Both the position numbers and the translations under genes were made by a program. A model generated the notes under the pieces. It was not told where the DNA came from. It ran no database searches and saw nothing but the letters and a program-made list of their open reading frames with translations. From IMG/VR virus record IMGVR_UViG_3300025319_000050, positions 1-40,260 of that record: a stretch of 40,260 nucleotides of DNA; one strand, given 5' to 3'. Shown here piece by piece: positions 7,850 to 40,260 of this stretch (position 1 is the first letter of the stretch; the number at the start of each line of letters is the position of its first letter). The stretch comes from a virus.

Positions 7850-10318
7850 TCACGCCTCATGCGGGTCGAAATCGCTCAACGCGGTTTCCTGCTGTGTGCG
7901 TTCCGATCCTAACCGCTCCGTGCGATCGCGCAAGAGGTCGCCGAAGATTTCGGGCAGTGTGTGATTGAGTGCATCCGAAATGTGGGAGTACCTATTTTTA
8001 TCAGGCGCATCGGTGTAACGCATCTCGCCCATCGAGTCGCGCACGAGCAAGCGCTTGTACTGATAGCCCCCGGCGAAGCCCTTGCGTAGGATCGCGCAGC
8101 GCGGATGCACAAGCAGTTGCGGCTCGCCATTGTCGAGCAGCGTGCGCAACGCGAGGTCCACGGACTCGATGCGTATCTGTACGGTTGATTCACCCCCACG
8201 AATATCAATACCCTTGCCGCGCAGGATGTCGAAGCAGGATCGCTCGTCGGTCTGCGCCGCCGCCTCGCCCGCCGGATCGCCGATGTCGATGTACTTTGCC
8301 TTCGATCCCATATGCTCGCGCGAAACACGCAGCACCACGTCGGAAAATGCGTCAATGCCAGCGCGCTCGGCACACAGTTCCCAGCCGATGCGCACCTGAC
8401 CCGTTGGCAAGAGTTGGAAGAAAACGCACGCCGGTGTATTCCCATTCCAGTGTGGCCGTCCTCCGCGACGCACATAGAGGGTGTGATAGGGCACGTTTAC
8501 GCAGTAGATACGCCCTGCGTAGTGCTTACGACGAAAGTGTTTCGCATGCAGGCCAGCGGTCTTTGATCCCTTTTTGAATGTAACAACGTAACCGTCGCTC
8601 GATTGGATAGCCCTCACTGTCGCACCTTCCACCAGGTGGCTCATGCGCCCTCGCTGGATTCTCACAGAGGATGTCCATCCGAGCTTTTGCGCAAGCTCTT
8701 GCATATCGGCAGCCATGCGCTCTGACATGGTGAACAGCGTATGTTCTATTGCTCCGTTCTCGCGGGTGCGAACGTGGCCGTCTCCTGCCGTATAAGCAGA
8801 CACGAAACGCTCAATATGCTCAGCCGGCATTTGCGCTATTTCTCGCGGCACTCGCTTGTCTCGTGCATGGCCGAAATTCATCAACCACGCACCGAGTTCA
8901 TTGTCCGTGACGCGCCAAGATTGGCCAGTCCACTTCCACGATCTCTCGGTGCCGTCGAGGATTGCCTGCATTTCCTGACTTCTCTCGTTCTGGTAAACGC
9001 TGATTCGATAACTGTTTCCTTTGCGCTCGACAGACCCCTCTGAAAGATACAGCCCCATGAACGCAGCAAAGACTGACGCCTCCATATCGAAGTACCGACT
9101 GTCCTTCCATCCATCAGCCATCCATGATGATGTGACGTCCACCCGCCAATGCCCCGTATTGTGCTGCGACAGCCAATCAGCCGACTTCCATTGCAGCGCC
9201 CCCATGTGGTGGTCGTCCCGGCATGCAACCAAGTGCTCCGGGGTAACGCACATATTCACTTCCGGAGAATCCCACTCCAGCATTTCACCTTCATACCAAC
9301 GATCAATACCGAACTTCGGGACGTGGTACTCACACTGCCCTGTCTCGGGGTTTCTCGTGGCGACCTTATCACCGGCATGTAGCGCGCAAAAAAAACGCCA
9401 ACCGCTCTCGGTGAGAACCTCTGTTTGATCGTCGTAACAGAGCCCAAAATCCCAGCCGCGATATATCTCGATGCCCGGCACCGGAAAGTCGAACTCGCGG
9501 CAGTGAATCGAATCCTTGTACGCCGGGTAGACCGCGCGCCCGCTGCGGATGAACCCGTACTCGCCGTCGATGTAAACCTTGGCTTCCTCCTCGGTCAGGA
9601 TTTGCACCAGATCGGAGTAGTAATCGTTTTGCAGGTGATCGAGGTTCTCCGCTTTCGGTCCGCGCGCGGAGGGCTGCTTGTAGATCGCGGCGAGCTTCGG
9701 CTTCTTGTCGGTCTCGAAGAACTTATACCAATCCGATTGTGTGTCGGGGGCGTTGGTGTCGAGCACGAGGAGCTTCATGAAGGCGCCCACCTCGTCCTTC
9801 GGCGGATAGCGACCGGCGCGGCCGAACAGCACGCGGATCAGCTCCCACGGTACCTCGCGCGCTTCGTTCACCCAGCCCCCGGTGAACTCGACCGACAACA
9901 GGTGGCCGATGTGATCGGGGCGGTCCAATGCGCGGAATAGAATCTCGGCATCGAACGGCCCGTGCTCGCCCTGGCCCTTGAGGAGATAGATTTGTTTCGA
10001 CTCGCGGTATTCCCCGCAACGGTTCGGCGGGAACCAATGGAAGAAAGTTTTGATAGTGGTGTCGGCCAGCTCGCGGTAGGTATTGCGCACAACGATGTAA
10101 CGCGAGCGGATCGTGCCATCGCGCCAGGGCGGGAGTGCGGAGGCGTGCTCGATCAGTTTGACGCCAGCGGCAGACGATTTGCCCGAGCCAAACGGGCCCA
10201 TCAGCCCGATCAGCTTGTGCTCGTCGTCATTCAGAAATGCGCGCAGCACCGCATACTTGCGGATGTCGTACTCGGCCTGATTATCGGGGAGTTCGGTGAT
10301 CGGGCTCGGCGTGGGCAT
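7850..10318 (-). CDS. terL: Terminase large subunit interrupted by an in-frame intein
   Basis: The 822-residue precursor is the packaging motor. The N-terminal ATPase shows a Walker A at residues 41-48 (GPFGSGKS) and an acidic Walker B region near 143-152 (VEFTGGWVNE). The nuclease domain begins at YRGWDFG and continues TPACVFFQLLPTG. These two halves are separated by a 334-residue intein (residues 294-627); removing it leaves GWDFGL joined to TPACVF and a mature protein of 488 residues, normal for podovirus TerL. Insertion at the first nuclease-motif Asp is typical: inteins favour conserved active sites. The intein must splice for packaging. The gene follows terS after a 54-base gap. Confidence 0.93.
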   Translation of the reverse strand: MPTPSPITELPDNQAEYDIRKYAVLRAFLNDDEHKLIGLMGPFGSGKSSAAGVKLIEHASALPPWRDGTIRSRYIVVRNTYRELADTTIKTFFHWFPPNRCGEYRESKQIYLLKGQGEHGPFDAEILFRALDRPDHIGHLLSVEFTGGWVNEAREVPWELIRVLFGRAGRYPPKDEVGAFMKLLVLDTNAPDTQSDWYKFFETDKKPKLAAIYKQPSARGPKAENLDHLQNDYYSDLVQILTEEEAKVYIDGEYGFIRSGRAVYPAYKDSIHCREFDFPVPGIEIYRGWDFGLCYDDQTEVLTESGWRFFCALHAGDKVATRNPETGQCEYHVPKFGIDRWYEGEMLEWDSPEVNMCVTPEHLVACRDDHHMGALQWKSADWLSQHNTGHWRVDVTSSWMADGWKDSRYFDMEASVFAAFMGLYLSEGSVERKGNSYRISVYQNERSQEMQAILDGTERSWKWTGQSWRVTDNELGAWLMNFGHARDKRVPREIAQMPAEHIERFVSAYTAGDGHVRTRENGAIEHTLFTMSERMAADMQELAQKLGWTSSVRIQRGRMSHLVEGATVRAIQSSDGYVVTFKKGSKTAGLHAKHFRRKHYAGRIYCVNVPYHTLYVRRGGRPHWNGNTPACVFFQLLPTGQVRIGWELCAERAGIDAFSDVVLRVSREHMGSKAKYIDIGDPAGEAAAQTDERSCFDILRGKGIDIRGGESTVQIRIESVDLALRTLLDNGEPQLLVHPRCAILRKGFAGGYQYKRLLVRDSMGEMRYTDAPDKNRYSHISDALNHTLPEIFGDLLRDRTERLGSERTQQETALSDFDPHEA
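8438..9439 (-). mobile_element. TerL intein with LAGLIDADG homing endonuclease
   Basis: A 334-residue intein encoded in frame. Block A starts at Cys294 (CYDDQTEVLTESGWRFF). Block B has the expected TxxH as TPEHLVACRD near residues 359-368. Two LAGLIDADG helices, FMGLYLSEGS (420-428) and VSAYTAGDGH (506-515), carry the acidic residues for Mg-dependent cleavage. Block F/G is RIYCVNVPYHTLYV followed by WNGN, then Thr628 as the +1 extein nucleophile. The penultimate residue is Gly where most inteins have His, which may slow C-terminal cleavage. The element would home into intein-free terL genes of co-infecting phages. Confidence 0.93.
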
Positions 10319-11563: not shown

Positions 11564-12024
11564 TCCAACAGATCAAGCGCGGATTGGAGCAATGCCGCAC
11601 GAGCGCGGATGAGTGGCCGCCGACGTTGTTGACTCCGCTTGTATCCTTTTTTGGTCGGCTCGATCTGCCCCACGCTCACCTGCACAACCCCACCTCGCGT
11701 CACCTCTCCGCGAAATACCTGAATCACGTCGAATTGTGAGTCGTCCTCAATGACGCCCGCGTGTGTCAGCGAATCGAGCAGGCTCTTGAGGATGTTGTCG
11801 AGGTCGCGCACGCGCCGGTCTGGCGCATGGGCATGTATCGTGATGCCAAGACGCCCGGCGAGCTTAAGATCGCACAGGCGCAAGCCGTAACAACGGCGCA
11901 TCACCTCGGCTCGATACGCCCTGCCCTTCTCGCTGATGAGTGTGCGGCCTGCCAATGGGCCACGGGAGAGATGGCGCCAGTAGGTATTAACGGAAGGCGG
12001 ATATGGAAGTGTTAGCTCAGTCAT
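11560..12024 (-). CDS. rusA: RusA-family Holliday junction resolvase with a replaced C-terminus
   Basis: The 154-residue product has the RusA pattern: PYPPSVNTYWRH at the start, then DRRVRDLDNILKSLLDSLTHAGVIEDDSQ (split here into DRRVRDLDNILKS and LLDSLTHAGVIEDDSQ), whose acidic residues coordinate Mg at the active site, and a lysine-rich end. RusA resolves four-way junctions made during recombination or replication. The family is usually about 120 residues; the extra tail here (RARAALLQSALDLLE) is encoded by a 64-bp inverted copy of part of the P-like gene at 14656-14719. The original 3' end appears to have been replaced. Confidence 0.88.
   Translation of the reverse strand: MTELTLPYPPSVNTYWRHLSRGPLAGRTLISEKGRAYRAEVMRRCYGLRLCDLKLAGRLGITIHAHAPDRRVRDLDNILKSLLDSLTHAGVIEDDSQFDVIQVFRGEVTRGGVVQVSVGQIEPTKKGYKRSQQRRRPLIRARAALLQSALDLLE
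11564..11627 (-). repeat. 64-bp inverted repeat, arm 1 (rusA 3' end)
   Basis: This segment is the reverse complement of 14656-14719 with one mismatch. Here it is read antisense and supplies the last codons of rusA; at 14656-14719 it is read in sense within the P-like replication gene, encoding QQIKRGLEQCRTSADEWPPT. The sense context identifies the P-like gene as the donor. Confidence 0.95.
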
Positions 12025-14230: not shown

Positions 14231-14909
14231 GGGTTTGCTCCTCATTTTGGATTGCCTCGCGCTCGAGGCGGGCTTCTGGGTCGTGCTTCACTTCATGTTC
14301 TTCGAGCGCCTCGATCAGTCCAGGCGGGCCTATGTGGATGCCACCGAGACGATGCGCGTGGTATTGCCATTTCCGCTCTAACTCGGCTGTCCATCCGCGT
14401 CGGGCCAGTCGCAGCGCCTCGAATTGCGCTTCCGTCTTTCCCGCTTTCAGTGCCGCCATTTTGGCCTCGAAGAAATCCCCGAAACCTTCACCGGGAAGAA
14501 ATACATTTCGGCGCATTCCGCCTTGTGCCTTCGCGATTGTTTCAATCGCGACCGCCACGATCATCGGATCACGTTGCGGCTCCGGTAATTTCTCAAACGG
14601 CCGGTGGTACGCCGCCGCGTATTGCGTCACCAAGCAGCGCGAGCGGAACACGGGTAACGTCGGCGGCCACTCATCTGCGCTCGTGCGGCATTGCTCCAAT
14701 CCGCGCTTGATCTGTTGGACGGTGATGTCGGCGAGGCCCGTGAGCCATGTGCCATCGTCCTTGGCGCCGTAGCTCGACACCCAGCGATGGCCGTAGATCA
14801 TCGCCATGCGCTCCCACAAGAGCGCAATGTGCCGATCGCTGAGGGCGCTATCGGCGGAGGTTGTTTGCAGCGCGGACTCGGCCGGAGAAATTACCGGAGG
14901 CTCGTTCAC
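14223..14909 (-). CDS. Replication protein P-like helicase loader
   Basis: The product of about 228 residues resembles lambda P-type loaders: LLWERMAMIYGHRWVSSYG, then WLTGLADITVQQIKRGLEQC and ADEWPPTLPVFRSRC, the conserved N-terminal half of the 'replication protein P' family. It would bring host DnaB helicase to the O-bound origin. The start is uncertain: GTG at 14907-14909 has a GGAG eight bases upstream and reads MNEPP; a TTG at 14966 would add 19 residues. The gene overlaps the O-like gene. Part of it (14656-14719) was copied in inverted orientation into the end of rusA. Confidence 0.8.
   Translation of the reverse strand: MNEPPVISPAESALQTTSADSALSDRHIALLWERMAMIYGHRWVSSYGAKDDGTWLTGLADITVQQIKRGLEQCRTSADEWPPTLPVFRSRCLVTQYAAAYHRPFEKLPEPQRDPMIVAVAIETIAKAQGGMRRNVFLPGEGFGDFFEAKMAALKAGKTEAQFEALRLARRGWTAELERKWQYHAHRLGGIHIGPPGLIEALEEHEVKHDPEARLEREAIQNEEQTHA
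14656..14719 (-). repeat. 64-bp inverted repeat, arm 2 (inside P-like gene)
   Basis: Sense copy of the inverted repeat shared with 11564-11627, one mismatch in 64. The two arms are about 3 kb apart in opposite orientation; recombination between them would invert the 11.6-14.7 kb segment. Confidence 0.95.
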
Positions 14910-18038: not shown

Positions 18039-18292
18039 CCTACCTCATCACCGTTTCACTCCTCTGCGCAGCGCTCGTACTGTGGGATGCGTTAAGGCAT
18101 TCGAAGCGCGGCGAGATCAGCACAGAATATCTCAAGCTTTATGAAGAAACCGTTAAGCGTTTACTTTCCCAACGTGAAAAGACTCGAATTAATCAACGGA
18201 GCAAAGACAATGACATCAAATCTATTTCAACCAGCAGATGCAGCACATGCGTACCTCAAAGGCGGGCTCCTCGGCCTTGCAGGTTCCGGTAA
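18035..18292 (+). CDS. Small membrane-anchored protein overlapping the recombinase gene
   Basis: An 85-residue product with an N-terminal hydrophobic helix (MTYLITVSLLCAALVLW), then a charged helix (TEYLKLYEETVKRLLSQREK). The start is coupled to the upstream stop. The last 83 bases overlap the Sak4-like gene in another frame, and the C-terminus (TCVPQRRAPRPCRFR) looks like out-of-frame sequence. The gene may have been truncated when the recombination module was joined. Confidence 0.5.
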   Translation: MTYLITVSLLCAALVLWDALRHSKRGEISTEYLKLYEETVKRLLSQREKTRINQRSKDNDIKSISTSRCSTCVPQRRAPRPCRFR

Positions 18293-19313
18293 AACTTTAA
18301 CTTCCTCCCTGATTGCGGTCGGCCTTATCGGCTACATCGAAAAGCGCGGCGTCGCCGTCAAGAAAAAAGCCGCGTTCGTCGATACCGAGAACGGCGCCTC
18401 GTGGGTAATCCCGCGCTTCAAAGACGCCGGGATTGAGTTAGTTGTCGCCCGCACGCGGGCATTGACCGACCTGCGCGATGCGATCAAGTGGGCAACCGAC
18501 AATGCCGATGTCCTCATCGTGGACTCGATCACGCACTTCTGGCGTATCTACTGCGACGAGTACGCAGTCAAGCGCAACCGTAAGCGCGGGTTGGAGTTCA
18601 GCGATTGGAATGAGGTAAAGCGCGAATGGCGTCTCAACTTCACCGACCTGTATCTCAACTCTCCATTGCACATCATCATGTGCGGCCGTCAGGGTTACGA
18701 GTACGACATGCAGGAAAACGACGCCGGCAAAAAGGAACTCGTCAAGACGGCTGTCAAGATGAAGGCCGAGGGTGAGACTGGATTCGAGCCGTCCCTGCTT
18801 ATCCAAATGGAGCAGGAGCAGCGCTTGGAGAAGGGGAGCGTTGTTGGTATCGACCACGTAGCCACGGTCTTGAAGGACCGCAGCGACGCGCTGGATGGCA
18901 AGATGTTCAAGAATCCCACGTTCGATAATTTTCTGCCACACATCGAGCGCCTTGCCATCGGCACCGCAGGGGTTGCCATCGACACCGGCCGCGACAACAG
19001 TTCTCTATTCACATCCGATGGCGATGACAATTGGGCGCATGAACGACGCCAGCGCGACATCTGGTGCGAGGAAATCGAGGGCTTGCTAGTGAAGCATTGG
19101 CCAGGCGCGACCGTGGAAGCGAAGGCCAAGAAAGCATCCCTCATCGAGAGTGTTTTCCAGACACGCAGTTGGACGAAGGTACAGGGGCTGCAATCGGAGT
19201 TTATCAAGGACGGCTATGAGACACTCCGGGTTATGTTGGAGCCGCCGATACGTAACGCCCAGGAGATTGATGTTGAGGCCGATGTTCCCGAGGCGAAGAA
19301 GGACGCGGCTTAG
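18210..19313 (+). CDS. Sak4-like RecA-fold ATPase (recombination)
   Basis: A 367-residue product, starting at the ATG at 18210 with CGGAG upstream; an in-frame ATG at 18141 lacks one. Walker A is GLAGSGKT at residues 22-29 and Walker B is DVLIVDSITHFW near residue 110, followed by sensor-like LHIIMCGRQGYEY. This is the AAA_24/Sak4 type of phage ATPase, associated with single-strand annealing recombination and often paired with an SSB or nuclease. Here it is followed immediately by NinB and an endonuclease VII homologue, consistent with a recombination module. No SSB gene was recognised. Confidence 0.8.
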   Translation: MTSNLFQPADAAHAYLKGGLLGLAGSGKTLTSSLIAVGLIGYIEKRGVAVKKKAAFVDTENGASWVIPRFKDAGIELVVARTRALTDLRDAIKWATDNADVLIVDSITHFWRIYCDEYAVKRNRKRGLEFSDWNEVKREWRLNFTDLYLNSPLHIIMCGRQGYEYDMQENDAGKKELVKTAVKMKAEGETGFEPSLLIQMEQEQRLEKGSVVGIDHVATVLKDRSDALDGKMFKNPTFDNFLPHIERLAIGTAGVAIDTGRDNSSLFTSDGDDNWAHERRQRDIWCEEIEGLLVKHWPGATVEAKAKKASLIESVFQTRSWTKVQGLQSEFIKDGYETLRVMLEPPIRNAQEIDVEADVPEAKKDAA

Positions 19314-20060: not shown

Positions 20061-20349
20061 TCGCGACGACATTCAAGGCACGTGCCCTATCTGTACCCGT
20101 GCATTCGTTAAGCGTCGGAGATGGCAGCGCTTTTGCTCCGCTGACTGCCGAAACGAGCACCACGAGCAGCACACCGCCGCCGTGCCCGGACAGATGGTGA
20201 AAGAAACCCTCGGCTACGCCAACTGCGGACACTGCAAACTATTCTGGACCGTGGTCAACCCGCTCGCCGGCAAGAGCTACCACTGCATCCACTGTGGAAA
20301 GGCCAACACGTTCCTTGAATCCGCTGCCGACGAAGGAAAAACGAAATGA
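20053..20349 (+). CDS. Zinc-finger protein
   Basis: A 98-residue product with GGAGG before ATG 20053, overlapping the upstream stop. Two metal-binding units are visible: GTCPICTRAF...RFCSADCRNEHH (residues about 9-37) and YANCGHCKLF...YHCIHCGKAN (about 55-85). The first resembles DNA-gyrase-inhibitor-type (YacG-like) ribbons. Function unknown; probably nucleic-acid binding. It overlaps the next gene by four bases. Confidence 0.7.
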   Translation: MDNRDDIQGTCPICTRAFVKRRRWQRFCSADCRNEHHEQHTAAVPGQMVKETLGYANCGHCKLFWTVVNPLAGKSYHCIHCGKANTFLESAADEGKTK

Positions 20350-20528
20350 GCACCACTGTACTTGAAGCCTTGCAAAACGCTTTGACGCTTCGCATGGCAC
20401 CGAATGCGCAGTGGGAAATTCGGCAGTACGCGAACGCAGTAGGTGAGCTGATCGCCGAGCAATTCCCGCGCACCTGGGCGCTTTTCGCGACGGCTAATGC
20501 CATGTTGAGCCACGTGGAGGAAACATGA
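20346..20528 (+). CDS. Small helical protein at the head of the attC array
   Basis: A 60-residue helical product (MSTTVLEALQNALTLRMAPN ... YANAVGELIAEQFPRTWALF). Its last codons lie inside the first attC-like site, and the C-terminal peptide TANAMLSHVEE parallels the NAVLSGAA and NATLTGE ends of later cassette genes, because all read through the same R''/L'' arm. It may itself be the first cassette gene, but no attC is seen upstream of it. Confidence 0.6.
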   Translation: MSTTVLEALQNALTLRMAPNAQWEIRQYANAVGELIAEQFPRTWALFATANAMLSHVEET

Positions 20529-20576
20529 CAACTGGCACCGCTGACAAACCACGTCGGCTCGAAAACACAGTTAGGC
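20492..20576 (+). repeat. attC-like site 1
   Basis: R'' is GGCTAAT (degenerate last base) at 20492-20498 and R' is GTTAGGC at 20570-20576. GAGCC (20507-20511) pairs with GGCTC (20556-20560) and ACGTGG (20512-20517) with CCACGT (20549-20554), leaving C20555 unpaired, like an extrahelical base. GGAGG and the ATG at 20525 lie inside the site. Confidence 0.78.
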
Positions 20577-20779
20577 AATCTGGCGATCCTTGCCGTTGTG
20601 GCGACGAAACGACGTGGCATCCCGAATGCTATGCGGACAAAGCCACCGCACAGAAACGCGGATGGCTGCGCATGCTTCCTGCACCCGAACACACCTATGA
20701 CTGGGACGAACACCCGGAAGATTACGATGGCCCTTGCTGTTGTGAACTGTGCCGCACTTATACAGTTGAAGATGCCTAA
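20525..20779 (+). CDS. Cassette A gene: cysteine-rich mini-protein
   Basis: An 84-residue product rich in Cys and His (GDPCRCGDETTWHPECYADK near residues 20-40 and GPCCCELCRTY near the end), suggesting metal binding. Start at ATG 20525, seven bases after GGAGG, both inside attC 1; the frame crosses the R' box (GTT AGG). The stop TAA is the TAA of the next R'' box, a classic cassette feature. The first 15 residues are therefore attC-encoded. Function unknown. Confidence 0.65.
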   Translation: MTTGTADKPRRLENTVRQSGDPCRCGDETTWHPECYADKATAQKRGWLRMLPAPEHTYDWDEHPEDYDGPCCCELCRTYTVEDA

Positions 20780-20856
20780 CGCAGAGGTGAGCCGCGATGA
20801 AAAATGACAAACAGGAATCCGCTGACAAAATCGTCGGCTCGACCGACGGGTTAGAA
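20774..20856 (+). repeat. attC-like site 2
   Basis: R'' GCCTAAC (20774-20780) and R' GTTAGAA (20850-20856). GGT pairs with ACC, GAGCCG (20789-20794) with CGGCTC (20835-20840) and CGAT (20795-20798) with ATCG (20830-20833). T20834 and G20841 stay unpaired on one side only, as in attC extrahelical bases. This is one of the two best-formed sites. Confidence 0.88.
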
Positions 20857-21084
20857 GGCAAAACTGGATGGTGGAACCCCGATCCGTACAGTATGCGCAG
20901 GCGCAGCGTTTTTCATTACGTCGGCACAGACGGCAGGACGCTGTGCATGAAGTGGGCCTATATGGGCCTTGGTACTGTTGAGGAAGGCATGGACGATCAC
21001 TTTGAAAATTGCGCCGCCTGCAAAAAGAAGAAGGCAAAAATGCCTTCTAACGCCGTGTTGAGCGGCGCGGCCAAAGGAGATTAA
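20797..21084 (+). CDS. Cassette B gene: small CxxC protein
   Basis: A 95-residue product. The ATG at 20797 lies inside attC 2 and the frame reads GGG TTA GAA through the R' box. After an attC-encoded leader of 18 residues the body reads GKTGWWNPDPYSMRRRSVFH and later DDHFENCAACKKKKAKMPSN, a His/CxxC end possibly binding zinc. The C-terminal NAVLSGAAKGD is encoded by the 5' arm of attC 3. No family recognised. Confidence 0.6.
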   Translation: MKNDKQESADKIVGSTDGLEGKTGWWNPDPYSMRRRSVFHYVGTDGRTLCMKWAYMGLGTVEEGMDDHFENCAACKKKKAKMPSNAVLSGAAKGD

Positions 21085-21131
21085 TATGAACGCCGACGCC
21101 TCTCCGCGTCCGGTTGAAGGCAATGTTAGCT
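21045..21131 (+). repeat. attC-like site 3
   Basis: R'' TTCTAAC (21045-21051) and R' GTTAGCT (21125-21131). CGCGG (21066-21070) pairs with CCGCG (21104-21108); the L''/L' arms (TTGAGCGG against CCGGTTGAA) pair imperfectly. The spacer contains AAAGGAG and the ATG at 21086 of the next gene. Confidence 0.72.
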
Positions 21132-21319
21132 GGCGCAAGGACTGTGATTGCAACGGGACATCTTCAACAGGACAGTTTATAAGCAAAGAGATTGGACGAG
21201 GTAAAGACTGCATATACATGGCAGTTCATTACTATCCAGGCCCATCATGCGACATGTGCGGCAAGCCGTGGGTGCAAGCTAACGCCGTGTTGAGCGGCGC
21301 GGCTGGTTCAACAACATGA
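21086..21319 (+). CDS. Cassette C gene: small CxxC protein
   Basis: A 77-residue product beginning with the attC-encoded leader MNADASPRPVEGN, then crossing R' in frame (GTT AGC TGG). AAAGGAG precedes the ATG. The body has DCDCNG near residue 18 and SCDMCGKPW near residue 55, a split zinc-ribbon-like pair. The tail NAVLSGAAG is again attC-encoded. Function unknown. Confidence 0.6.
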   Translation: MNADASPRPVEGNVSWRKDCDCNGTSSTGQFISKEIGRGKDCIYMAVHYYPGPSCDMCGKPWVQANAVLSGAAGSTT

Positions 21320-21363
21320 AACGGCACGGCGTAACCCGCGCCCGGTTCAGGGTGATATTAGGT
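21277..21363 (+). repeat. attC-like site 4 (degenerate R')
   Basis: R'' AGCTAAC (21277-21283); the R' position reads ATTAGGT (21357-21363), with A in place of the G at the exchange point. CGCGG pairs with CCGCG (21336-21340), and TTGAGC.GG aligns with CTGAACCGG on the other arm with single-base bulges. The lost G may block recombination here. Confidence 0.7.
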
Positions 21364-21378
21364 TTAACGGAGGCTACC

Positions 21379-21537
21379 ATGAAAGTGCTTGGACAGTACG
21401 ACACAAGCGGAAATTACCGAGCCTACACGGAGCCACAGGATGTTTATGTGTTCGGTCATAGCCTGAAAGACAGCGACGGTTTTCTTTTGGCCGTGAGAAA
21501 TACCTGCGGTGACTGGGTATCGCCGGATAAAAGTTGA
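21379..21537 (+). CDS. Cassette D gene: small protein
   Basis: A 52-residue product (MKVLGQYDTSGNYRAYTEPQ ... FLLAVRNTCGDWVSPDK), beta-rich, without metal motif. Unlike its neighbours it has its own GGAGG and ATG after the R' box, so the start at 21379 is preferred; an upstream in-frame ATG at 21316 inside attC 4 also keeps the frame open. The stop lies just before the next R'' box. Confidence 0.6.
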   Translation: MKVLGQYDTSGNYRAYTEPQDVYVFGHSLKDSDGFLLAVRNTCGDWVSPDKS

Positions 21538-21538
21538 A

Positions 21539-21622
21539 ACCTAACGCAAAATTGAGGCGCGAGCCATGAAAGCAAAAAAGAAACGCCGTAGTAACCGAGT
21601 CGCCTCGGATGACTTGTTGGGC
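21539..21622 (+). repeat. attC-like site 5
   Basis: R'' ACCTAAC (21539-21545) and R' GTTGGGC (21616-21622), the latter a full match to GTTRRRY. GAGGCG (21554-21559) pairs with CGCCTC (21601-21606). Pairing of the inner stem beyond this is weak. Confidence 0.75.
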
Positions 21623-21811
21623 GTCCTCGAAACCGCTAGCCGTGACCTATTGGCATGGGATGAGAAATACCCGAAAGGAACGGTCTATAACGATGGCCAA
21701 CACAAGGCATGTGAAAACGAACTGACGGCACTCATTGAACGATTCCGCGTACTTTTGACGCCTAACGCCACCTTAACCGGCGAGCGCAGGAGGAAAAATG
21801 AGCACCGATGA
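21566..21811 (+). CDS. Cassette E gene: small helical protein
   Basis: An 81-residue product. ATG 21566 lies in attC 5 behind a GAGG, and the frame crosses R' as TTG TTG GGC. After a basic attC-encoded leader (MKAKKKRRSNRVASDDL) comes a helical body (VLETASRDLLAWDEKYPKGT, ... ENELTALIERFRVLL). The end, NATLTGERRRK, is read from attC 6. No family recognised. Confidence 0.55.
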   Translation: MKAKKKRRSNRVASDDLLGVLETASRDLLAWDEKYPKGTVYNDGQHKACENELTALIERFRVLLTPNATLTGERRRKNEHR

Positions 21812-21843
21812 AAAAGCGAGTCCGGTTCAAGGCGTTGTTAGCA
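21760..21843 (+). repeat. attC-like site 6
   Basis: R'' GCCTAAC (21760-21766) and R' GTTAGCA (21837-21843). CCTT (21771-21774) pairs with AAGG (21829-21832) and AACCGG (21775-21780) with CCGGTT (21822-21827), leaving C21828 as the single extrahelical base. AGGAGG and the ATG of cassette F lie in the spacer. Confidence 0.88.
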
Positions 21844-22010
21844 CGTACTTTTCGGTGAGACGATTCACGCGGACGTTTTGCATAGCTTGCGGCAGCGATG
21901 TGACGGACACGCCTCGATTGCACGGGTTCTGTAGCTGTCCAAAATGCGATGCCTGGACGATGAATGTCGATGTGAAAGACAGGCCGCTATTCGACTTGAG
22001 TGCGTGCTAA
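21798..22010 (+). CDS. Cassette F gene: zinc-ribbon mini-protein
   Basis: A 70-residue product starting at ATG 21798 after AGGAGG, both inside attC 6; the frame crosses R' as GTT AGC. Two CxxC pairs (TFCIACGSDV and GFCSCPKCDAW) form a typical small zinc ribbon. The stop TAA is the TAA of the following R'' box. Likely nucleic-acid or protein binding; specific role unknown. Confidence 0.68.
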   Translation: MSTDEKASPVQGVVSTYFSVRRFTRTFCIACGSDVTDTPRLHGFCSCPKCDAWTMNVDVKDRPLFDLSAC

Positions 22011-22030
22011 CGCTGTGTTGAGCGGCGCGG
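22005..22030 (+). repeat. attC-like half-site 7
   Basis: TGCTAAC followed by GCTGTGTTGAGCGGCGCGG is almost identical to the 5' arms of sites 3 and 4, but no GTTRRRY box or pairing arm is recognisable in the next 100 bases. The array appears truncated here, so cassette F could not be excised normally. Confidence 0.7.
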
Positions 22031-22058
22031 CCGGGAAGTAATCGAAGCGGCACGCTAC

Positions 22059-22078
22059 GCCGGCCTATCCAGGCCGGC
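22059..22078 (+). terminator. Perfect hairpin after the cassette array (weak terminator candidate)
   Basis: GCCGGCC-TATCCA-GGCCGGC is a perfect 7-bp stem, followed by TCGATT rather than a T-run. It may pause or partially terminate transcription, or be a remnant of a lost attC. Confidence 0.35.
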
Positions 22079-22118
22079 TCGATTGAAGCATAAACGGATG
22101 CGGCGAGGAGACGCCGCC

Positions 22119-39244: not shown

Positions 39245-40111
39245 TTAACCGCCCACACAGGCGACTTCGATGACCTGCTCATCCTCGATGCGCACACCGC
39301 CGAGCGACATGCAGACGTACACCTGCGTCGACATGCGCTTGTCACGCCGCGGGCCGATGTCCACCATGATGTCCTTCGGGACGCCGAGACCGATGGCGGT
39401 GCCGGCGTAGGCGTAGGCCAGCCGGTCGCCCGAGCCGTCGGTGAGCAGACGCTGCGTGCGGATGAACTTGAAGCCGAGGAAGGTGTCGAAATCGCCCTTC
39501 ACCAGCGCCTTGACGGTGTTGTAATCGGCGCTCTTGATCTCGGTCGTGTTCAGGAGGCTCGTCAGCATCTTGGCTGTGACCGCGAAATAGCGCGGGGTCA
39601 TCTCGTCCACCTCGGCCTCATCCATTTTCTCCTTGGCTGAAAGGAGCTTCGCGAGCGTCAGATTGGTCGCCGCCGCCGCTATCTTCTGCGCCGCCGGTAA
39701 CGCGACCGACGTGGTGCCCTCCTCGCCGGTCAACGCCAAACCGCCCAAGGCGCCGATGATCTCGTCGTCTTGCGAGCGGCCCATTGCGGCCGAGCCCATC
39801 ACGGCATACGAGTTCGTCGGGTCGTGGATGGTTTTGAGTTTGTCCGCCTGATCGACCAAATCACCCCAGTCGTAGTCGAACATCACCGCCGCGCGCCGTG
39901 AGTGCGGCGTGTTCATGAGCGGGGTGTCGGCGTGGCGGGTGGTGACTTTCTGTGCGGCGGTAGCGCCGATACGGTCGAAGAAGACCTTCTTGCCGACAAT
40001 ATCGCCGTCGTCGCGCACGGTCGAGCGCAGCCGGCTCATGCGCTGTTGGGAAAGAAAAACGACGTTGTCTTTGTACTGCTGAACGCGGTGGACGTCGATT
40101 TCGACTGACAT
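39245..40111 (-). CDS. Major capsid protein
   Basis: A 288-residue product beginning MSVEIDVHRVQQYKDNVVFL; the ATG at 40109-40111 has GAGGAG at correct spacing and is preferred to an upstream ATG 14 codons earlier. The sequence (QRMSRLRSTVRDDGDIVGKK, RRAAVMFDYDWGDLVDQADK, MTPRYFAVTAKMLTSLLNTT) matches the small 'phage capsid protein' family of podoviruses, expected to adopt the HK97 fold. It forms the head shell around the scaffold. The upstream gene in the closed circle is the YkgJ-like gene. The 5' part recurs at the left contig end as a different allele. Confidence 0.9.
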   Translation of the reverse strand: MSVEIDVHRVQQYKDNVVFLSQQRMSRLRSTVRDDGDIVGKKVFFDRIGATAAQKVTTRHADTPLMNTPHSRRAAVMFDYDWGDLVDQADKLKTIHDPTNSYAVMGSAAMGRSQDDEIIGALGGLALTGEEGTTSVALPAAQKIAAAATNLTLAKLLSAKEKMDEAEVDEMTPRYFAVTAKMLTSLLNTTEIKSADYNTVKALVKGDFDTFLGFKFIRTQRLLTDGSGDRLAYAYAGTAIGLGVPKDIMVDIGPRRDKRMSTQVYVCMSLGGVRIEDEQVIEVACVGG

Positions 40112-40260
40112 GGTAGCTCTCCTCGAAAGTGTCTTACTTGGCCTTACGGCCACCTTTCGGATGAGCTACCCGGAACTGCCGGACCCTCCTCGCCTGTATC
40201 GCTGGCGTGGGCGCGTGCCATGTTGGCCCGCGTCAACCGGACGCGAAAGCGCTACCCGGT
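39827..40260. repeat. Terminal redundancy of the contig, copy 2
   Basis: Second copy of bases 1-434, colinear without indels, 13 mismatches. It contains the first 95 codons and the leader of the capsid gene; bases 40112-40260 are non-coding leader. The offset of 39,826 gives the likely unit genome length. Confidence 0.93.

Follow-up and report, generated by a model that had tools for sequence, protein, structure and literature searches.

Positions 20492-22030 of this phage genome hold a genuine integron cassette array, and its genes are inverted relative to their attC sites. In the window, a whole IMG/VR virus record of 40,260 nucleotides, the interval from 20492 to about 22095 is occupied by six full-length repeats (83-88 bp each) and a seventh that is partial, with exactly one small plus-strand gene between successive sites. 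The sequence-only reading had described six sites and a half-site here with these boxes, had placed one gene in each interval, and had called the whole an integron-type attC array in a temperate phage; our analysis agrees on these points, with the ORF positions bearing out the gene layout. We think it likely that the window carries a phage-type attC cluster without intI, with genes inverted relative to attC and cassettes turned over by IntI in trans. The record itself is probably a complete genome with its terminal overlap uncollapsed, because a 434-bp repeat at 97% identity occupies both ends (1-434 and 39827-40260). PHROG matches identify phage integrase, terminase, tail and major head proteins.

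The sites were assessed with a covariance model, R1, built from 54 bacterial attC sites, either adjacent to intI in GTDB genomes or from plasmid class 1 integrons, with phage sequence excluded. R1 matched four window sites, all on the minus strand: s2 (20774-20856; R'' TTCTAAC, R' GTTAGGC; 33.8 bits, E 8.5e-6), s6 (21760-21843; R'' TGCTAAC, R' GTTAGGC; 29.0 bits, E 1.1e-4), s5 (21539-21622; R'' GCCCAAC, R' GTTAGGT; 26.4 bits, E 4.3e-4) and s3 (21045-21131; R'' AGCTAAC, R' GTTAGAA; 15.9 bits, E 0.11). A covariance-model check had been proposed from the sequence, and it came out in favor of attC: all four matches lie in the array, and apart from weak or partial ones at s1 and s7, no other match at E ≤ 10 was found on either strand of the 40-kb window. 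Sites s1, s4 and s7, also on the minus strand, are degenerate. In the left terminal site s1 (20492-20576; R'' GCCTAAC), whose R' reads ATTAGCC, R1 weakly recognized the inner arms on the minus strand (8.2 bits, E 0.44), and there is a box match within its own cassette. Site s4 (21277-21363; R'' ACCTAAT, R' GTTAGCT) has no whole-site R1 match and was assigned from repeat family D1 and its own-cassette box match. The half-site s7 (22005-22095) has an intact R' side (GTTAGCA) and an eroded R'' side; it was assigned from a partial R1 match (4.8 bits, E 2.7) and repeat family D1. It marks the end where attI/intI would be expected.

Folding the bottom strands, another check proposed for the sites, lent no support. 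As plain DNA, s1 to s6 were not unusually stable (z +0.6 to -1.1), and energies so near those of shuffled sequence mean that fold energy alone is no evidence for attC. These energies, and an Rfam search that gave no match, would suit chance repeats or transcription terminators within coding sequence. That explanation is extremely improbable given an independent model that reaches E 8.5e-6 with matches only in the array, and a cassette logic that holds in six of six cassettes (below). The sites have the R''-L''-L'-R' structure with extrahelical bases, are more numerous than the two required of a CALIN, and have no integron integrase nearby.

The polarity of the sites was determined by the strand of the R1 matches. 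R1 scored the published CALIN of phage TJE1 and the bacterial sites of genome G001 on their gene strands, as expected of controls, and in the window its matches lie on the strand opposite the cassette genes. The extra L-arm base (GAGCCGAC) and the GCGTTAG junction, which are frequent in the bacterial set, are also on the minus strand here. Crossovers therefore fall at NNCTAA|C, the left end of each window site, and the plus-strand genes run against the direction of their attC sites. The sequence-only reading had assigned the opposite polarity, its R'' (NNCTAAC) being the complement of R' and vice versa, so its G|TT crossover points at the right ends and its cassette limits were wrong. R1 polarity and three junctions in other viral contigs (below) led us to reject a plus-strand crossover.

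Cassette limits were inferred, crossover to crossover, from the minus-strand R' boxes. Cassettes A (20498-20779; gene 20525-20779, plus strand) and F (21766-22010; gene 21798-22010, plus strand) both end with their gene, the stop codon being the TAA of the crossover box, a coincidence of stop and box that had already been noticed. Three genes extend 34-46 nt into the next site: those of cassettes B (20780-21050; gene 20797-21084, plus strand; 34 nt beyond the crossover), C (21051-21282; gene 21086-21319, plus strand) and E (21545-21765; gene 21566-21811, plus strand). The gene of cassette D (21283-21544; gene 21380-21537, plus strand) starts at an ATG of its own, accompanied by GGAGG, immediately to the right of s4. 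Every ATG lies inside its own cassette, and five of the six are in the attC loop with SD-like bases upstream. Thus an attC stands at the 5' end of each gene, where canonical cassettes have it at the 3' end (PMC4670013). Some unrelated cassette proteins of other contigs (L185, L202, L211, L119 and L128) share short N-terminal motifs, among them GPVERIVG, GPVERPLG and APLQRPVM, which appear to come from translation of the attC arm.

On insertion, a circular cassette brings with it the TTRRRY to the right of the crossover, which matches its own R'' box rather than the second box of that site. The window carries this trace: the start of R' is complementary to the R'' of its own cassette, with the last three box bases matching within cassettes in 6/6 cases and within sites in 0/7 (permutation P 0.003), degenerate s1 and s4 included. 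Bacterial arrays behaved likewise, with 34/49 matches to the own cassette versus 12/61 to the same site.

The array sits in the early region of the phage. Upstream, and on the strand of the cassette genes, is an AAA/Sak4-like early gene (18141-19313, plus strand; phrog_1366 and phrog_124), and the NinB and endonuclease VII genes of the early operon are upstream as well. Downstream is a tyrosine integrase of phage type (24567-25535, plus strand; phrog_1). This enzyme shares a genome with the cassettes and belongs to the same recombinase superfamily as IntI, yet it had no IntI-model or NCBIfam match and the sites fit a model of IntI substrates; we rejected it as the agent that moves the cassettes, a role we consider highly improbable. 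Adjoining the array and ending inside s1 is a 60-amino-acid gene (20346-20528, plus strand) carrying a ThyX C-terminal fragment (Pfam Thy1, 31.8 bits, cut-off 24.8), its residues 1-41 matching the C-terminal 36 positions of ThyX. Elsewhere in the window, the large terminase gene (7850-10318, minus strand) has an apparent intein (CYDDQTEVLTESGWRF ... HWNGNT), and its middle matches thymidylate synthase phrog_85, possibly via the intein. A 64-bp inverted repeat at 98% identity (11564-11627 and 14656-14719) is a coding stretch in two copies (..QQIKRGLEQCRTSADEWPPTL..).

A search of the whole record with TIGR02249 was empty, confirming that the window lacks an integron integrase; it is thus not a complete integron, which would have intI with attI and Pc. 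Mobilization must therefore take place in trans or have ceased, and we infer that IntI acts, or acted, in trans on this array. No IntI above the model cut-off was found in 16 of 17 other viral records tested. Intact IntI is present in G200 (L125, L134, L135 and L142), a 50.5-kb temperate phage that carries at least six attC sites and also encodes TerL, portal, tail, repressor, serine integrase, DnaB and Sak4. Its IntI scored 421.9 bits against a cut-off of 265, is 52% identical to IntI1, and conserves R141, H272, R275, H298 and Y307. The G200 array genes point toward intI and share their strand with the Sak4-like early gene. The window has the same order as G200 minus intI, running from early genes through cassettes to the phage integrase. 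A tblastn scan (E ≤ 1e-3) returned 532 viral stretches encoding IntI relatives, possibly including Xer-like enzymes, the best 80 of which were examined (L143-L222). Both TerL (phrog_15) and portal (phrog_21) occurred in 13 of the 31 IntI-bearing contigs tested, and, with G200, at least 14 terminase- and portal-bearing phages encode IntI.

These phage-borne enzymes bear on where the cassettes came from. Capture in a host carrying an integron, as first proposed, is too narrow: six of the seven window sites have their closest relatives in other phages, albeit in a sample with ascertainment bias, and several phages carry IntI, so a host integron is not the preferred origin. The window might instead be a fossil, a stretch of bacterial chromosomal integron picked up once and now inert, with its orientation accidental. 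The missing IntI and the degenerate end sites s1 and s7 would fit, a betaproteobacterial genome with intI carries a site similar to the window's (L006), and Shewanella phage M16-3 is a canonical capture of this kind. We regard such a fossil as unlikely, since it must be set against the biased but one-sided resemblance to phage sites, the exchange of cassettes between other viral contigs, and gene orientation, bacterial cassettes being sense to attC in 45/49 cases and the window's antisense in 6/6.

We quantified orientation in further viral contigs obtained from attC pattern scans and an IntI scan, scoring each cassette heuristically by ORF length, start codon and SD. Bacterial arrays linked to intI had 39 sense and 4 antisense cassettes and plasmid class 1 arrays had 6 and 0, for a bacterial total of 4/49 antisense. 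The window and pattern-found viral arrays, including G200, had 16 sense and 42 antisense cassettes (42/58), where contigs without IntI were found by window-site patterns and are therefore biased toward the window's attC type, though not toward a gene orientation. Viral contigs found through IntI, from the best 80 of 532 stretches, had 31 sense and 56 antisense (56/87). Both viral sets differed from bacteria (Fisher P 4.6e-12 for pattern-found and 5.7e-11 for IntI-found), with the caveat that the counted unit is the cassette rather than the independent lineage and that some arrays are near-duplicates. Although 47/145 viral cassettes scored as sense, Pfam matches covered 16 families in 87 antisense proteins versus 4 families in 116 sense proteins, and this excess implies that the antisense strand is the coding strand in most viral cassettes. 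Inverted arrays thus recur, for the most part, in phage contigs beyond this window. Among the contigs concerned, G197 has TerL and a major head protein, G187 has portal and a major head protein, G189, G194, G201, G203 and G206 have TerL, and G199 has a tape-measure protein.

The sequence-only reading had suggested a gene-shuffling device of phages, and related viral contigs do exchange cassettes exactly at the crossover. G193 and G197 agree at 99.97% identity across 11,117 bp up to ..GACCGCTAA|CGCAGA.., where they diverge into different cassettes. G194 shares 2,276 bp with G193 at 99.96%, starting exactly at GGCTAA|CGCC and preceded by a different cassette, against 74-96% for the remaining phage genes of this pair. 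At the third junction, GGCTAA|C, the sequences differ on the right. In these metagenome assemblies, all three breaks in identity fall exactly at NNCTAA|C and whole cassettes are exchanged; for example, a Mom cassette (L124:10125-10751, plus strand; protein 76 bits, cut-off 27.1) lies between two copies of one 58-bp site in G193 and G197 and is absent there in G194. Two of the junctions share just ~6-12 bases around the crossover, so that an error of k-mer assembly is improbable, and three contigs (L089, L090 and L108) carry the G193 stretch.

The proposed check for presence or absence of cassettes at the crossover therefore succeeded in G193, G194 and G197, but for the window itself it found no close relative. 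Searches by DNA similarity and with the AAA protein in viral contigs returned no close phage relative and none with a different cassette set, the relatives found being distant ones recognized through tail and AAA proteins only; hence, the evidence for exchange comes entirely from other viral contigs. Such exchange could also arise by homologous or illegitimate recombination among repeated linkers, with the attC-like sequence being just a common linker that offers a good ribosome-binding site, as in modular mosaicism. Repeats of 53-87 bp are indeed common to the contigs, and not every difference between them is at a crossover: the near-identical phage contigs L081 (2150-2215) and L088 differ by a 136-bp deletion that adjoins an attC and was rejected as a cassette difference because it lies off the crossover, between TGACGC repeats (microhomology). 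Recombination among linkers nonetheless seems quite improbable, as all three junctions are at the R' box rather than spread across the repeat, two of them share only those few bases around it, the own-cassette match of R' and R'' is a by-product of circle integration, and other phages possess IntI.

Phage attC clusters without IntI have been published. Qi et al. 2023 (PMC9892861) reported complete integrons and 17 CALINs in phages, the latter including Tetrasphaera TJE1, Pseudoalteromonas PH101/H101, Polaribacter P12002L and others, which like the window are attC clusters without intI in phage genomes. In that work, six phage attC sites, drawn from three phages of which PH101 was one, were assayed with IntI1, and five of them recombined into attI1. 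The genes of TJE1 are sense to attC, unlike those of the window, whereas the H101 CALIN (L227, 75919-77987) seems inverted like the window, with R1 sites on the plus strand and annotated genes on the minus strand. In the passages of PMC9892861 consulted, we found no discussion of genes antisense to attC. The paper also describes complete integrons with IntI and an attC array in the prophages Vibrio anguillarum p16 and Shewanella M16-3; the M16-3 array is canonical, with genes sense to attC, whereas that of G200 is inverted and lies between early genes and a serine integrase.

Sedentary chromosomal integrons of Vibrio, Xanthomonas and betaproteobacteria share with the window their attC structure, R'/R'' logic and one-gene cassettes. 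They differ in that attC follows the gene on its 3' side and the direction of reading under Pc leads away from intI (PMC8876359, PMC11023631), whereas the window has attC 5' of the gene and genes read toward the attI/intI end. Spirochaete integrons have intI in reverse orientation, according to a citation in PMC9668308, an exception that concerns the direction of intI and is compared with the window by description only. According to reviews, selectivity for the bottom strand sets the direction of cassettes so that Pc can express them (PMC8876359, PMC11023631), and inverted phage arrays contradict this view. We found no published account of phage cassettes inverted relative to attC, of their coupling to a phage operon, or of exchange between phages, in a search that covered few subscription journals and preprints.

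The six cassette proteins of the window had no useful family match, including none for cassette C, and no homologues in phage or plasmid records. The cassette B protein weakly matches phrog_2358, a family with no assigned function, and that of cassette F has CxxC pairs and looks zinc-ribbon-like by eye, with all its family matches below cut-off. In other phages, the majority of cassettes also lack annotation; those with family matches encode N6/N4 and C5 DNA methylases, Mom, PAPS-reductase-like and DUF5131 proteins, and DNA methylases, Mom and Acb2/Tad1 are among the cargo of inverted cassettes. A G189 cassette encodes an Acb2/Tad1 hairpin protein (L118:3095-3316, minus strand; 65.1 bits, cut-off 27); L211:5202-5441 had been considered for this assignment and was rejected. 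A Lar-like gene close to the array of phage L001 scored 26.6 bits, under the 28.6 cut-off. Methylases, Mom and Acb2/Tad1 have roles in evading restriction and CBASS/Thoeris. By comparison with these, the six window cassettes may have counter-defence or accessory functions.

In the mechanism we favor, each cassette consists of an attC followed by its gene; the attC loop usually contains the SD and ATG, and the TAA of the next R' box often supplies the stop. Through inversion relative to attC, cassette genes are co-oriented with the phage early operon and most likely expressed from its promoter rather than from an integron Pc. IntI, provided in trans by a host integron or a co-resident IntI-bearing phage, would act on the plus strand in its folded form, which is the bottom strand of attC, leading to gain and loss of cassettes. 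We are evenly divided on a broader reading, that temperate phages own a dedicated form of integron with inverted cassettes placed in the early operon, attC doubling as translation start region, and phage-encoded IntI moving cassettes in cis or trans from a pool of counter-defence and accessory genes exchanged between phages. The window would be a member of this form without IntI.

Integrons are regarded as bacterial devices in which all cassettes are constrained to a single direction that allows Pc to express them. Phage arrays keep their genes in the other direction, so that the phage's own early operon would express the cassettes. If this is true, temperate phages would have a site-specific mechanism for swapping counter-defence genes such as methylases, Mom and Acb2/Tad1, and the arrays would offer a defined motif for finding new ones.
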